Shown: positions 32,864-38,914 of the stretch, one piece after another
Position numbering within the stretch: position 1 is the stretch's first letter
How the letters are laid out: every line of letters starts with the position of its first letter
Assembly (NCBI GenBank): GCA_017303455.1
Contig: JAFLBM010000003.1
Location: 186,001 to 250,000, forward strand
DNA: 64,000 nt
Direction of reading: 5' to 3'
From: Chitinophagales bacterium
GTDB lineage: Bacteria; Bacteroidota; Bacteroidia; Chitinophagales; Chitinophagaceae
Program-made: the position numbers and the translations under genes
The notes under the pieces: model-generated
Database searches by the model: none
The model's input: only the letters and a program-made list of their open reading frames with translations
What the model was told of the DNA's origin: nothing

Positions 32864-33277
32864 TTATCTGTGAGAAATTCTAGGTTTAATAAAATCAACG
32901 GCGTCAGTTATATTGTCTACTGTGTAAATGTACTCTGTTGGCCAATTTTGGCATTTTGAAGATATTATTGCAACGCATGGAATTTCTGAACCTGCCATAT
33001 ATGAAAGCGGCTCTAAAATAGCGTTTCCCCAAGAGTAGGTCATTTCTTTAAAATCAGTAATTAAGCCCCGGGTCAAGTGAGATTCCAATTTGCATATGAT
33101 CGTATCTCGTATAAAGTCTGCGTCAATGTTTCCTTGTGATCCTCTTTTGTAGATGCCTATAAACTGTAAAATAAAAACACCATTGTCGTTAGGCAATTCA
33201 GATACAATACACTGAACTGTTACCTTTTCTTCTGGCAATTTTTTTGAAAATATTCGGAGTACTTTTTTGAAAAACAT
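32864..33277 (-). CDS. Orphan protein preceded by an attC-like half-site
   Basis: A 137-residue protein that I do not recognise. It starts with a basic helix (MFFKKVLRIFSKKLPEEK), has no signal peptide, and is probably a compact alpha/beta protein (FILQFIGIYKRG; CVAIISSKCQNWPTEYIYTV). About 23 bases upstream of its ATG lies sequence matching the second half of the attC-like site at 37467, so it may be another cassette cargo gene, though no matching downstream site was found. Confidence 0.6.
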   Translation of the reverse strand: MFFKKVLRIFSKKLPEEKVTVQCIVSELPNDNGVFILQFIGIYKRGSQGNIDADFIRDTIICKLESHLTRGLITDFKEMTYSWGNAILEPLSYMAGSEIPCVAIISSKCQNWPTEYIYTVDNITDAVDFIKPRISHR

Positions 33278-33299
33278 TAGAGTCTAACTAAAATTACAG

Positions 33300-33379
33300 C
33301 CAATGGGAACAGATTTGAGTTCGGCAGTGCATTTGAAAAACGCCATGCCCGCAGCCGGATAGAATTAATAATGCTGAAG
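33300..33379 (-). repeat. attC-like half-site upstream of an orphan gene
   Basis: TTCGGCAGTGCATTTGAAAA matches TTCGGCAGGGCATTTGGAAA of the full site near 37481-37500, and CTGAAG at its far end matches too. The core reads GGGAAC/GTTCCC. The first half of the site is missing; a different palindrome lies beyond it. Confidence 0.5.
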
Positions 33380-33474
33380 ATAATTACAAAAGCTGAATTA
33401 TAAAATTCAAGCCCGACCGCTTCTGATAGCAAGCAAAACAAACATATATGTGTATTTATTTCACAATTTATTTA

Positions 33475-33494
33475 CCTGTCGGCCTGCAGACAGG
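33475..33494. repeat. Short palindrome of the CCTGTC...GACAGG type
   Basis: CCTGTC and GACAGG arms flank an 8-base centre; 1 base beyond the stop of the 33496 gene. Related in sequence to the element inside the amidohydrolase gene at 18242; it could act as a terminator hairpin here. Confidence 0.5.
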
Positions 33495-36390: not shown

Positions 36391-36486
36391 ATGCCAAAAA
36401 AGACAGCTGAACCCAGGAAGAATAAGCCTACTAAAAAGAAAAGTTCAGCACAAAAGAAAGCGAATCCAAAGAAAAAACTACGCTAA
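36391..36486 (+). CDS. Lysine-rich 31-residue protein
   Basis: A 31-codon frame, MPKKTAEPRKNKPTKKKSSA and onward, that is almost half Lys plus Arg and lacks hydrophobic residues, as in short histone-like or nucleic-acid-binding tails. It sits 29 bases after the 57-residue protein and ends just before a strong terminator, supporting a real small gene at the end of the regulator transcript. Confidence 0.5.
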   Translation: MPKKTAEPRKNKPTKKKSSAQKKANPKKKLR

Positions 36487-36500
36487 GATCAAAACGCAGA

Positions 36501-36523
36501 AAGCCCGGTTCACAGCCGGGCTT
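36501..36523 (+). terminator. Rho-independent terminator
   Basis: AAGCCCGG and CCGGGCTT form an 8-bp stem with a 7-base loop, followed by CTTATAT, after the lysine-rich protein gene. Confidence 0.75.
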
Positions 36524-36589
36524 CTTATATAAAGTAACTCACAAATAGTGGGGAACATCGCATTTCTTTCTGTAATTCTTCCACGAGCT

Positions 36590-36706
36590 GGGAATATACG
36601 CTGTCACTCATCTGTGTTGGGTCAGTCCGATATGTAGCTGAAAGTAGTACTAAGATGAGGATATGTTCGTCGCCCCGTGCTGACGCAAAACTGCCTGTTG
36701 CCTGCT
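36590..36706 (-). repeat. attC-like site after cassette 2 (first half)
   Basis: On the minus strand it starts with AGCAGGCAAC, then a block conserved with the site at 37658: AGGCAGTTTTGCGTCAG and TCCTCATCTTAGT, then CTGACC-AACAC. AGCAGGCAAC is the perfect complement of GTTGCCTGCT at the start of the same cassette (37466). The second half of the site is diverged or lost. Confidence 0.6.
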
Positions 36707-36723
36707 GTGTTTCGTCACGAGCC

Positions 36724-37416
36724 TTATTTTGTAACTAAATTATATTTATAGAGGTCATGTTTTTTTAGCACTTCGAGCACCGGTTTGAATTTATTGTCAG
36801 GAATTTCTCTTGTTGTGATAATAATTATCTTCCTAATATCCTGTTTATGTGCAGTGACAAAAGTGTCAAGGTCGTTTGTTGTTTTAAGTTTTGTCTCTTG
36901 TCCGAAGAGCTTGACATCAATACCCTTGTCGAGGATTGTTATCGAAAAATAGGTTGAATCATTTTCGTTGTATGTGGTTACAACCGAAGTCGGTGTTTGA
37001 ATGGTTACTGGCTCAGGCGGAGTGAAATATTTCTGAATATTAATCACCTTATAATTTGCTACTTGGTTTTTAGTTAGGATATCAATAACTGCTAATGTTC
37101 TTTTAAAGTCAGTAGTGCTATCCATTAATACATAAAACAAGTCTTTTTTGATTTCTTCTTTATTTGAAACTATTAGTTTTTCTACTTCGGTCAGCGCTTC
37201 AACATCTGTTTCCTTGTCGTTCAATATCAGGGCGTAGCCTTGTTGTACAACTGCAATAGACCTTTTAAACATATTCATATCACTGGCACCTGCGTTGTCA
37301 GGATGACCGTTAGGATTAAATAGTTTAACCGTATCTATTTTACTTTGTTTGTCTGTGTTTTGCTGTCCCGAACAACCGGTCACAATTAGTACGAGGAAAA
37401 AAAGAAAGTATCGCAT
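36724..37416 (-). CDS. Cassette-borne lipoprotein with two ExbD/TolR-like domains
   Basis: A 230-residue lipoprotein (VTGCSG, Cys15). Both halves resemble the periplasmic domain of ExbD/TolR: residues about 60-125 (DLFYVLMDSTTDFKRTLAVI then DILTKNQVANYKVI) and about 155-230 (ILDKGIDVKLFG, IIIITTREIPDNKFKPVLEV then LKKHDLYKYNLVT). The transmembrane helix and catalytic Asp of real ExbD are absent, replaced by a lipid anchor. It sits between complementary 10-bp ends, 18 bases before its attC-like site. Function unknown. Confidence 0.65.
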   Translation of the reverse strand: MRYFLFFLVLIVTGCSGQQNTDKQSKIDTVKLFNPNGHPDNAGASDMNMFKRSIAVVQQGYALILNDKETDVEALTEVEKLIVSNKEEIKKDLFYVLMDSTTDFKRTLAVIDILTKNQVANYKVINIQKYFTPPEPVTIQTPTSVVTTYNENDSTYFSITILDKGIDVKLFGQETKLKTTNDLDTFVTAHKQDIRKIIIITTREIPDNKFKPVLEVLKKHDLYKYNLVTK

Positions 37417-37466
37417 TGTCGGAATGAAGATTTGATTTTAAGGTCTATCATAACATAGCAGGCAAC

Positions 37467-37658
37467 GTTAGGGCTTTGCGTTCGGCAGGGCATTTGGAAA
37501 ACGTCCAGCTGGGAACTGCGGCCGATTAAAGATACTGAAGTCGAAAATATATTTTGTAGCTCATTCGTGTTCGGTCAGCCGGATATGCAGCTGATAGTAG
37601 CACTAAGATGAGGATTTATTCGTCGCCCCCGCTGACGCAAAACTGCCTGTTGTACGCC
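37467..37658 (-). repeat. attC-like folded recombination site after cassette 1
   Basis: Reading the minus strand: GGCGTACAAC next to the stop codon of the 37660 gene, AGGCAG, TTTTGCGT, CAG, CGG, GGGC, a central region, then GCCC, TG, CCG, A, ACGCAAA, GCCCTAAC and the junction GTT. The paired blocks TTTGCGT/ACGCAAA, CGG/CCG and GGGC/GCCC make a long hairpin of about 192 bases. The outer pair is the cassette's own start, GTTGTACGCC at 38223. Confidence 0.6.
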
Positions 37659-37659
37659 G

Positions 37660-38196
37660 TTATCTTGTCTGTCGTTGCGATTTGTCCACTGCGATTTTAT
37701 ATTTTTTCAAATATGATTCGGGAAGCAAATCCTTTTCTGCTCTGTCAATGCACTTTATAAAATTTGCATAGTCTTTCTGAGTCCAGGCTTTGTCCGCCCC
37801 TTGAATATTTTGCAAGTGAATTATTCGCCTTGTATATTCTCTTGATTGACCGTCCGAAAATTCATTAAGCTTCTTAAATATCTCTTTGTCGCCTGACACA
37901 ATAAGCTTTCCTGAAGTTTTCAAAAATGAAATCAGATTCTCAATTGTCAGCGTCGATTGAAGTTGAAACCTGTCGTCTTTAAAAACTTCTTTTACTACAA
38001 TTGGTGTCAACTCAACTAAGGATTTTGAGTCTTGTCCAACGTGAGTATAAAATAGGTATTCGAGGTTGGCGTATGCAATAGTTATAATTGCTGATTTTGA
38101 GGAATACTCAATAAAGTGCTGTTCTTTTTTTGTCACTGAAAAATTATTGTCAGTAAGAAATTCAGTGAGTGGATATGTTGACTGGTCAAAGTTCAT
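37660..38196 (-). CDS. Cassette-borne orphan protein
   Basis: A protein of 178 residues starting at the ATG at 38196 (MNFDQSTYPL); longer starts would run across the recombination core at 38214-38223. It has no signal peptide. It is not recognised: a mixed alpha/beta first part (HFIEYSSKSAIITIAYANLE) and a helical end rich in Lys, Glu and Tyr (DYANFIKCIDRAEKDLLPES). The stop codon is 1 base from the attC-like arm, an arrangement typical of gene cassettes. Confidence 0.65.
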   Translation of the reverse strand: MNFDQSTYPLTEFLTDNNFSVTKKEQHFIEYSSKSAIITIAYANLEYLFYTHVGQDSKSLVELTPIVVKEVFKDDRFQLQSTLTIENLISFLKTSGKLIVSGDKEIFKKLNEFSDGQSREYTRRIIHLQNIQGADKAWTQKDYANFIKCIDRAEKDLLPESYLKKYKIAVDKSQRQTR

Positions 38197-38213
38197 AAGG
38201 GGTCTGTCCGAAT

Positions 38214-38236
38214 GGCGTACAACGTGTGTATTTGCG
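38214..38236 (-). repeat. Cassette 1 boundary (recombination core)
   Basis: On the minus strand: CGCAAATACACAC then GTTGTACGCC, 17 bases before the cassette gene ATG. CGCAAA-N6-AC-GTT resembles the end of the attC-like site at 37467 (CGCAAAGCCCTAACGTT). GTTGTACGCC is complementary to the arm next to the gene's stop. Confidence 0.6.
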
Positions 38237-38401
38237 AAACTACGAACTGTTTTTCTTGATAAGCTCAAAAAATTGTCGATGTGATTGTCAGTAGCTTAGG
38301 CCAGTTTATGCAAGATTTTAAGGAGTTAAACCGGGTTGCGGCAATACCCGATTGTAAACGTTTAGAAATGTTTGCACACGGTTTCGCTCCGCATAATCTC
38401 C

Positions 38402-38914
38402 TCACTCCTCCTTCCCACCCTTTTCTCCCACAAACCAATGCTCTTTGTTTTTAAACAATACATTAAAAGTGGTAAGGGAGCCATAGCAACGGGTGATATA
38501 TTGCTGCAGGTTCACTTTTTCTTCATCACTCAATTTTTTATGGCTGTTGATATTTTGTTCCAGCACCCGCAACCGGTCCCGCAGTAGCACGATCTTGTGA
38601 AAGAAATCATCAATGGGAATTTCTTTTGGCTACAGGCTTTTATCGGCAGGTTGTATCAGTAAAGTGCCATTGAGCCATTTTTCACCCAGGGGTACTGTTT
38701 CAGTAAGTCCGCCCCAGAGCCGCAGAATTTTTAATAATGATCGTTCCACTTCTGAATGGGTTTCTATTTCTGCCGTTATATTCTCGGCGATGATCTCATC
38801 TAATTGTGTATCGGTCTTGTCAATTTCTTTGATACCGTGGTTGATAAAAGAAATAAGATACGTGGCATATTTTATACCCACAATAACGCCGGGGCCGTAT
38901 AAAGTGTGTTGCAA
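38402..38914 (-). pseudogene. Hypothetical protein gene with an in-frame TAG and no clear start
   Basis: One minus-strand frame encodes GVIVGIKYATYLISFINHGI, EIDKTDTQLDEIIAENITAE, then a TAG at 38630-38632, and continues PKEIPIDDFFHKIVLLRDRL to a Lys/Glu-rich end (GEKGGKEE). Frame and composition are continuous across the stop, consistent with a CAG to TAG change. The 5' end runs into a different truncated gene near 38911, so the N-terminus is lost or altered. Not recognised; helical. Confidence 0.7.

Follow-up and report, generated by a model that had tools for sequence, protein, structure and literature searches.

The window analysed here, a stretch of 64,000 nt of a Chitinophagales bacterium genome of the family Chitinophagaceae (positions 186001-250000 of its contig C23), carries two neighbouring minus-strand genes, each of which lies between a pair of complementary arms. 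The four arms are found exactly where a sequence-only reading of the stretch had placed them. Both cassette ends are adjoined by a 27-nt repeat, 93% alike in its two copies (36674-36700 and 37626-37652), behind which lies an 84-nt repeat that is 82% alike between the two sites, and AACAGGCAGTTTTGCGTCAG is present in 2 copies in the window vs 0.02 expected. The features as we read them, R1 being the covariance model described below, are:

38224-38243, minus strand: attI-like site, abutting the GTT at 38223-38221 (GTAGTTTCGCAAATACACAC, then GTT), ranked first among 2230 window GTTs
37467-38222, minus strand: cassette 1, which begins with the TT of its GTT and includes its entire attC, with arms GTTGTACGCC / GGCGTACAAC and a corresponding unit in two other genera (genomes G198 and G149)
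38214-38223, minus strand: start arm of cassette 1, GTTGTACGCC
37660-38196, minus strand: gene of cassette 1, 178 aa, no known family (by translation, Pfam and homologue searches)
37649-37658, minus strand: end arm of cassette 1, GGCGTACAAC, 1 base after the stop of the gene (end 37660), on the R'' side of the attC
37455-37661, minus strand: complete attC-like palindrome belonging to cassette 1, which has the stem AGGCAGTTTTGCG... / ...CGCAAAGCCCTAAC and extends to the following GTT (37466-37464); its R1 match of 195 bits holds by construction, because the site is one of the 12 model rows
36586-37465, minus strand: cassette 2, with truncated attC; arms GTTGCCTGCT (37466-37457) / AGCAGGCAAC (36706-36697)
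36724-37416, minus strand: gene of cassette 2, 230 aa, a lipoprotein as predicted by eye, with an ExbD match below the cut-off
36586-36709, minus strand: truncated attC of cassette 2 (R1 match 36484-36709, 62 bits), the 3' half of which is absent, since homology to the first site breaks off near 36593
33293-33483, minus strand: second, degenerate attC-like site (R1 50 bits, E 3e-9), with the second-best attI-like score at 33439
32864-33277, minus strand: gene of 137 aa, ascribed to the second, probable cassette site from the comparison with the congener G167

No Pfam family was matched above its cut-off by either cassette protein, and an Rfam scan of 36-39 kb of the window gave no match. The genes are not orphans, as had been proposed, since searches at E<=0.001 rendered 44 proteins for the 230-aa product and 81 for the 178-aa product, the query's own entry being counted in each. 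At 38402-38914, adjacent to the cassette site, a gene that forms a single 181-aa frame in G167 is broken into two frames.

Perfect 10-bp GTT-anchored inverted pairs are not rare by themselves: the window has 8 per strand vs 0-5 per strand in 20 shuffles, and six of them are others than the two cassette pairs. Complementary arms alone, which had been taken as the hallmark of cassettes, are thus within reach of chance, and the case for cassettes rests on the coincidence of the arms with the repeat, with an attI-like site and with the same rule in other arrays. These counts would speak for chance pairs around two ordinary genes, but in two other genera the 178-aa gene has homologues whose end arm is identical and whose start arm is either identical or differs by one base, and the arm rule followed by 95 cassettes, the linkage to an integrase and the rank of the attI-like site, all given below, leave this explanation with next to no probability.

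A search of the genome itself with the 192-nt site rendered 20 matches, of which 12 reached E<=0.01 and most had 70-90% identity. Twelve copies were aligned (64% mean column identity) and the covariance model R1 built from them, which detected 21 sites in the genome at E<=0.01, including 37455-37661, 36484-36709 and 33293-33483 of the window; because R1 was made from those copies, the matches of the 12 rows are there by construction. Five sites lie on a single strand of another contig, C24, where GTTAGGCGTTGGCTA and AGCTAACGCCTAAC are examples of the cassette ends. Two other search procedures were discarded: a hairpin finder with a strict score, in place of which the covariance model was used, found 3 sites in loci of this genome and none in the window, and AACAGGC alone was too common to serve as a landmark. 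In a scan with stricter filters, reporting at most 8 matches per genome, 191 of 294 Chitinophagaceae genomes, belonging to 80 of 101 genera, had R1 matches at E<=0.01. Among 296 genomes drawn from the phylum, 34 had matches at E<=1e-5, many of them by a shorter match. A search for palindromes that made no use of the model, carried out on 20 loci, rendered 29 pairs vs 0 in shuffles (palindromic sites may count on both strands), and linked sites of the short form turned up in three loci that lack R1 sites (L240, L244 and L245) as well as in three that have them (L205, L222 and L243).

The two arms of the stem pair with each other in 252 sites, with a score of 23.2 vs 11.4 for shuffled arms (the largest of 300 shuffles reaching 12.2). 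The distance from AAC to GTT is 180-199 nt in 182 of these sites and 110-129 nt in 49; it is typically about 185 nt, or ~121 nt in other groups. Folded as single-strand DNA, the two sites of the window were no more stable than shuffled sequences (z -0.34 and 0.38); another site of the genome had a z of -2.39, and the RNAalifold covariation term was weak for the aligned sites.

The arm rule was assessed in 95 cassettes for which both sites were called less than 3 kb apart; the underlying set was 141 sites at E<=1e-7, and the regions of relatives had been chosen for their R1 matches in the family scan. Between the start and the end arm of one cassette 5.36 of 6 variable positions are complementary, and 67 of the 95 pairs are perfect; with shuffled partners the mean is 2.86 (maximum of 10000 shuffles 3.34), with 3.5 perfect pairs on average. 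The left and right arms within one site, which belong to neighbouring cassettes, match at 2.82 of 6 positions (121 sites). Fewer than 5 matches were found in 14 of the 95 cassettes, all of them longer than 1.2 kb (the median of the 95 is 698 nt), so that a missed site in between is likely. The sequence-only reading, which had named repeat copies without arm covariation as the finding that would speak against it, had taken the two units for integron-type cassettes of a divergent attC class or with another recombinase, and both the rows of sites in this genome and its relatives and the covariation of the arms, cassette by cassette, bear it out. It was also right that the core departs from the strict GTTRRRY: the consensus over the 95 cassettes is GTTRNNNGYNA, vs the R' core GTTRRRY of classical integrons, although some single arms fit the latter, such as GTTAGGC on contig C24.

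The ends of the units also bear on whether each might be a MITE- or IS-like element with terminal inverted repeats that acquired a gene. Complementary ends and a palindrome in every unit would be expected of such elements; however, the ends vary by unit, 46 different 6-nt arms being present among the 95 cassettes, which leaves no common terminal repeat, and the units stand head to tail in one orientation. We therefore regard this origin as extremely improbable.

The anatomy of the cassettes was examined in 183 of them (gaps of 150-2500 nt only, duplicate loci being removed by hand). In 176 of these the largest ORF has the sense orientation, with a median of 203 aa, a median start ~35 nt past the GTT and a median stop ~7 nt before the site match. 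A Pfam scan of 120 proteins, 119 from this set plus the 178-aa protein of the window, matched 63 families; among the 25 families listed are hydrolases, Mrr-type restriction endonucleases, TPR proteins and several DUFs, most of them represented by 1-2 members. With PADLOC, cassette proteins matched 9 models, for type IV restriction enzymes and a small number of candidate defence proteins.

There is no integrase in the window, as had been noted before; a genome search found none within the 64 kb. In the arrays that were retrieved a tyrosine recombinase precedes the first site and shares its strand, in line with the earlier proposals that a tyrosine recombinase linked to arrays should be sought in relatives and that the cassette system might use another recombinase than IntI. 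The linkage was quantified in two overlapping sets of loci. The first comprises the first 40 of 46 usable loci among the first 60 integrase matches, 14 having been dropped with the contig end less than 1.5 kb downstream. Of the 40 loci, 29 had sites downstream, including 26 of the 27 whose downstream sequence reached 2 kb or more; all 131 downstream sites are on the integrase's strand, and only 2 sites were found in 149.6 kb upstream. In the second set, 80 named loci of many genera, 34 loci contain 106 R1 sites: 99 are downstream on the same strand (30 loci), 7 are upstream in divergent arrangement (4 loci), and none is in either of the two other arrangements. Downstream sites are present in 24 of the 44 named loci in which the downstream sequence is 2 kb or longer, divergent ones in 4, and 16 have no R1 site on either side. 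The predominance of the same strand differs from classical integrons, in which the integrase gene is usually divergent from the array.

An array-type integrase was detected in 112 of the 294 Chitinophagaceae genomes. Sites are present in 103 of these 112 and in 88 of the 182 without it (the lists having been transferred by hand from the site and integrase scans); thus, 9 integrase genomes have no site, and 88 of the 191 site-bearing genomes no integrase at E<=1e-50. The genome studied here has its integrase on contig C10, together with an attI and a cassette. That first cassette (L069 3239-318) is ~2.9 kb long and appears to hold RNase H-like and UvrD-like helicase genes. Between the integrase and the attI (L069 3390-3240), TTGTATTTGCGAAAGTGCC was seen by eye twice in direct repeat, and GCGAAAGT / ACTTTCGC as an inverted pair; these repeats are possible candidates for recombinase binding sites. 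Two loci from more distant records may also be mentioned: L246, in a record titled Phycisphaerales, has a Bacteroidota-type integrase and sites, and is possibly a mis-binned contig, and L152, from a genome of another class (G310), has two classical IntI matches, two long R1 sites and a non-IntI recombinase divergent near them.

The array integrases are tyrosine recombinases that stand close to IntI but apart from it. The classical IntI model TIGR02249, which had no match over its cut-off in this genome, gave 165-189 bits with seven array integrases (cut-off 265), each in two stretches, which in the integrase of this genome correspond to model positions 2-180 and 240-315. The best NCBIfam model was in all seven NF040815 (XerA/integron integrase), at 192-219 bits (cut-off 220). 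The IntI-specific segment, comprising 39 alignment columns, is filled in 12 of 12 IntI sequences and empty in 42 of 42 array integrases. These 42, out of at most 81, were included in a tree in which they form a clade sister to IntI (0.93), apart from sequences labelled XerC and XerD by similarity. The array integrases share the catalytic fold with XerA, XerC and XerD (NF040815, TIGR02224 and TIGR02225); unlike XerC and XerD, they group with IntI and stand beside cassette arrays. The catalytic residues R, K, H, R, H and Y are present in 43 of 43 close relatives, and a predicted full-length structure, compared with the PDB, had IntI4 (2a3v) first with XerA (5hxy) practically tied. Many loci encode an additional N-terminal domain of ~90 aa (26 chosen loci were aligned), for which a PDB sequence search gave only three chance-level matches and Pfam matched DUF5710 weakly in 14 of the 26 members. 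This domain may resemble HARP, a likeness considered prior to the fold search; the XPB N-terminal domain and the HARP domain of SMARCAL1 are a lead for this part of the integrase only.

That the locus could be a CALIN, a cassette cluster left behind by a classical IntI integron, has to be weighed against these results. CALINs, in the sections available of the paper on IntegronFinder 2.0 (PMC9024848), are attC clusters without integrase, and the window locus is alike in having no linked integrase within 64 kb, as are, at the threshold used, the 88 site-bearing genomes of the family without an array-type integrase. However, another contig of the genome encodes an array-type integrase accompanied by attI and attC, and in the window an attI-like site marks the beginning of the cassettes. 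A classical IntI over the TIGR02249 cut-off was found in only 1 of the 294 family genomes, in a copy with an internal stop. In ten regions (175 kb) at classical IntI genes of the wider phylum, taken as a control, R1 gave only matches of E 0.15 and 0.67, and the linked sites, findable in 5 of the 10, have stems that differ from the R1 class. A derivation from classical integrons is accordingly judged very improbable.

The attI-like sites were characterised in 42 arrays in which the GTT of the first cassette could be located through its partner arm. It lies 93-249 nt past the integrase stop in 32 of them, mostly after a motif like CRTAWATTTAYGA. A matrix was derived from 39 of the 42 sequences, 3 being dropped by eye as far from the integrase stop; two sequences also more than 1.1 kb from the stop were kept, and the lowest training score was -10.4. 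The training set included the C10 site of this genome and nothing from the window. Over the 2230 GTTs of the window, the matrix placed that of cassette 1 (38223) first with a score of 12.3 and that at 33439, in the second site, second with 9.5, followed by a third at 3.8, the training median being 15.7; the GTT at 33439 is not followed by R. Across the genome the attI pattern is only a guide, because it had 14 matches vs 8 for a reversed control. In our reading the arm consensus follows 9 of these 14 matches, one of them behind the C10 integrase. A partner arm is present within 1.5 kb for 3 of the 14, and for the matches on C10 and C31 we read it at about 2.8-2.9 kb. Attachment sites of this kind are probably scattered over the genome, in which case one integrase would have to act in trans.

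A comparison with other genomes shows where the locus changes. In the congener G167 the left flank is shared at 92% identity up to CACACGTTG, past which other genes follow (GTTGGCAGC..., a 334-aa ORF), and on the right the similarity resumes within the truncated attC. G167 also has other DNA in place of the stretch after the second site (33293-33483) that includes the gene 32864-33277. The terminal attC (36586-36709 in the window, L168 10517-10742 in G167) has its 3' part in common and a different 5' stem arm, as if there had been a switch inside the palindrome, which simple cutting at GTT does not explain. Another congener, G091, is alike only outside about 36178 and 38402, with ~1.5 kb of other DNA in between, in which a weak site (17.5 bits) precedes GTTGGCAGAA; these breakpoints are not at GTT, so the change there is wider than the cassettes. 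In the congener G219 the flanking gene of the locus was not found. The expectation that strains would differ by a unit bounded exactly at GTT is therefore only partly borne out: in G167 the left flank runs to the GTT and then differs, while the breakpoints in G091 lie elsewhere.

The 178-aa gene was detected in 8 of 394 family genomes, this one included, and was not found in G167 or G091. In the window and in G149, of another genus (58% identity), it follows an attI-like motif and its cassette starts with GTTGTACGCC; in G198, of another genus as well (95%), it follows an attC and has the start arm GTTGAACGCC, one base different. All three units end with TAAcGGCGTACAAC and have an R1 site behind, and the outer flanks in G198 and G149 differ from those of the window. 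Of the more loosely bounded homologues, that of G219 (78%) has the end arm and no clear start arm, and that of G070 (34%) an R1 site ahead and AGCACACAAC behind, with no matching start arm; no arms were found around those of G665, G663 and G183.

Several of these observations would also be consistent with palindromes that are inert repeats, between which genes are exchanged by homologous recombination only, the integrase being a bystander: the sites of one genome are alike, as the identities of the aligned copies and of most matches show, the terminal attC of the window and G167 differs by a switch inside the repeat, and G091 differs at other breakpoints. Against it stand the arms outside the palindrome, the complementarity of which within each cassette is not created by homologous recombination, the start of the window cassette behind an attI-like site, which is not the repeat, the left junction with G167, which falls at GTT, and the linkage to the integrase together with the strand bias of the sites. 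Inert repeats are thus an improbable explanation.

It is very likely that the two genes are integron-like cassettes placed in tandem at an attI-like site, probably by the tyrosine recombinase encoded on another contig. Judged by sequence, a GTT arm and a matching AAC arm enclose one sense-strand gene in each cassette, a palindromic attC-like site fills the space between the AAC of one cassette and the next GTT, arrays follow an attI-like motif, mostly on the strand of the integrase, and one cassette can be recognised in different genera, with almost conserved ends between altered outer flanks. On these grounds we infer a new class of integron-like system. The recombinase, with its predicted catalysis, would cut at the GTT core and join the GTT cores of attC and attI, with the corresponding polarity. 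The cassette would leave as a circle, in which the joined arms would rebuild one attC, and the circle could enter attI-like sites, also far from the integrase, in trans. As in integrons, recognition of the attC would probably involve a folded single strand; this step rests on the analogy and on the stem-arm test, since the folding energies and the covariation term give little.

With classical integrons the system would share head-to-tail cassettes with one gene in one orientation, a GTT/AAC core with arms complementary within a cassette and different between cassettes, a palindromic site with paired inner arms, and a tyrosine recombinase with a putative attI-like site at the head of the array. 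It differs in its arm rule, in its AAC-to-GTT distance, in the prevailing orientation of the integrase gene, and in the integrase itself, which has no additional IntI segment (0 of 42), scores far from the TIGR02249 cut-off and in many loci carries the ~90-aa N-terminal domain. We lean towards the broader reading that the Bacteroidia have an integron class of their own, on a branch as old as IntI, with sister recombinases that do without the IntI-specific domain, an attC/attI grammar of their own, often an XPB/HARP-like domain that reads DNA structure, and one gene serving many scattered attI-like sites, the cassettes being spread genome-wide.

In the accessible part of PMC9668308 the additional IntI-specific domain is a defining feature of integron integrases; if the recombinase works as predicted, this domain is not needed for cassette capture. 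Bacteroidota are among the phyla with integrons in the portion available of a review (PMC8618304), and the sections of PMC9024848 referred to above mention few integrons from Bacteroidetes, namely In0 and one complete integron in Salinibacter ruber, vs cassette sites in 191 and an integrase in 112 of 294 Chitinophagaceae genomes found here. Among the papers listed in searches of the open-access published literature, none was on a non-IntI cassette system in Bacteroidia. The cassettes may also represent a large mobile gene pool, including type IV restriction enzymes and defence candidates, that tools based on IntI and classical attC sites may miss, and the array integrases could serve as an outgroup for the origin of IntI from Xer-type recombinases.

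The attC sites of this class also appear together with insertion elements. An element end, GTCAGACTGTGAAAAAAC..., replaces the GTT core at the right end of four attC sites, three in this genome and one in G291 (L003 1667 and, on the minus strand, L014 1553, L069 11875 and L082 8007), and the element is probably an insertion sequence whose targets are attC sites of this class. On contig C24 (L021 17330-18900), a transposase gene lies inside the right end of an attC; by its look we take it to be IS110-like, and the target choice of IS1111/IS110 elements has reportedly been the topic of published papers.
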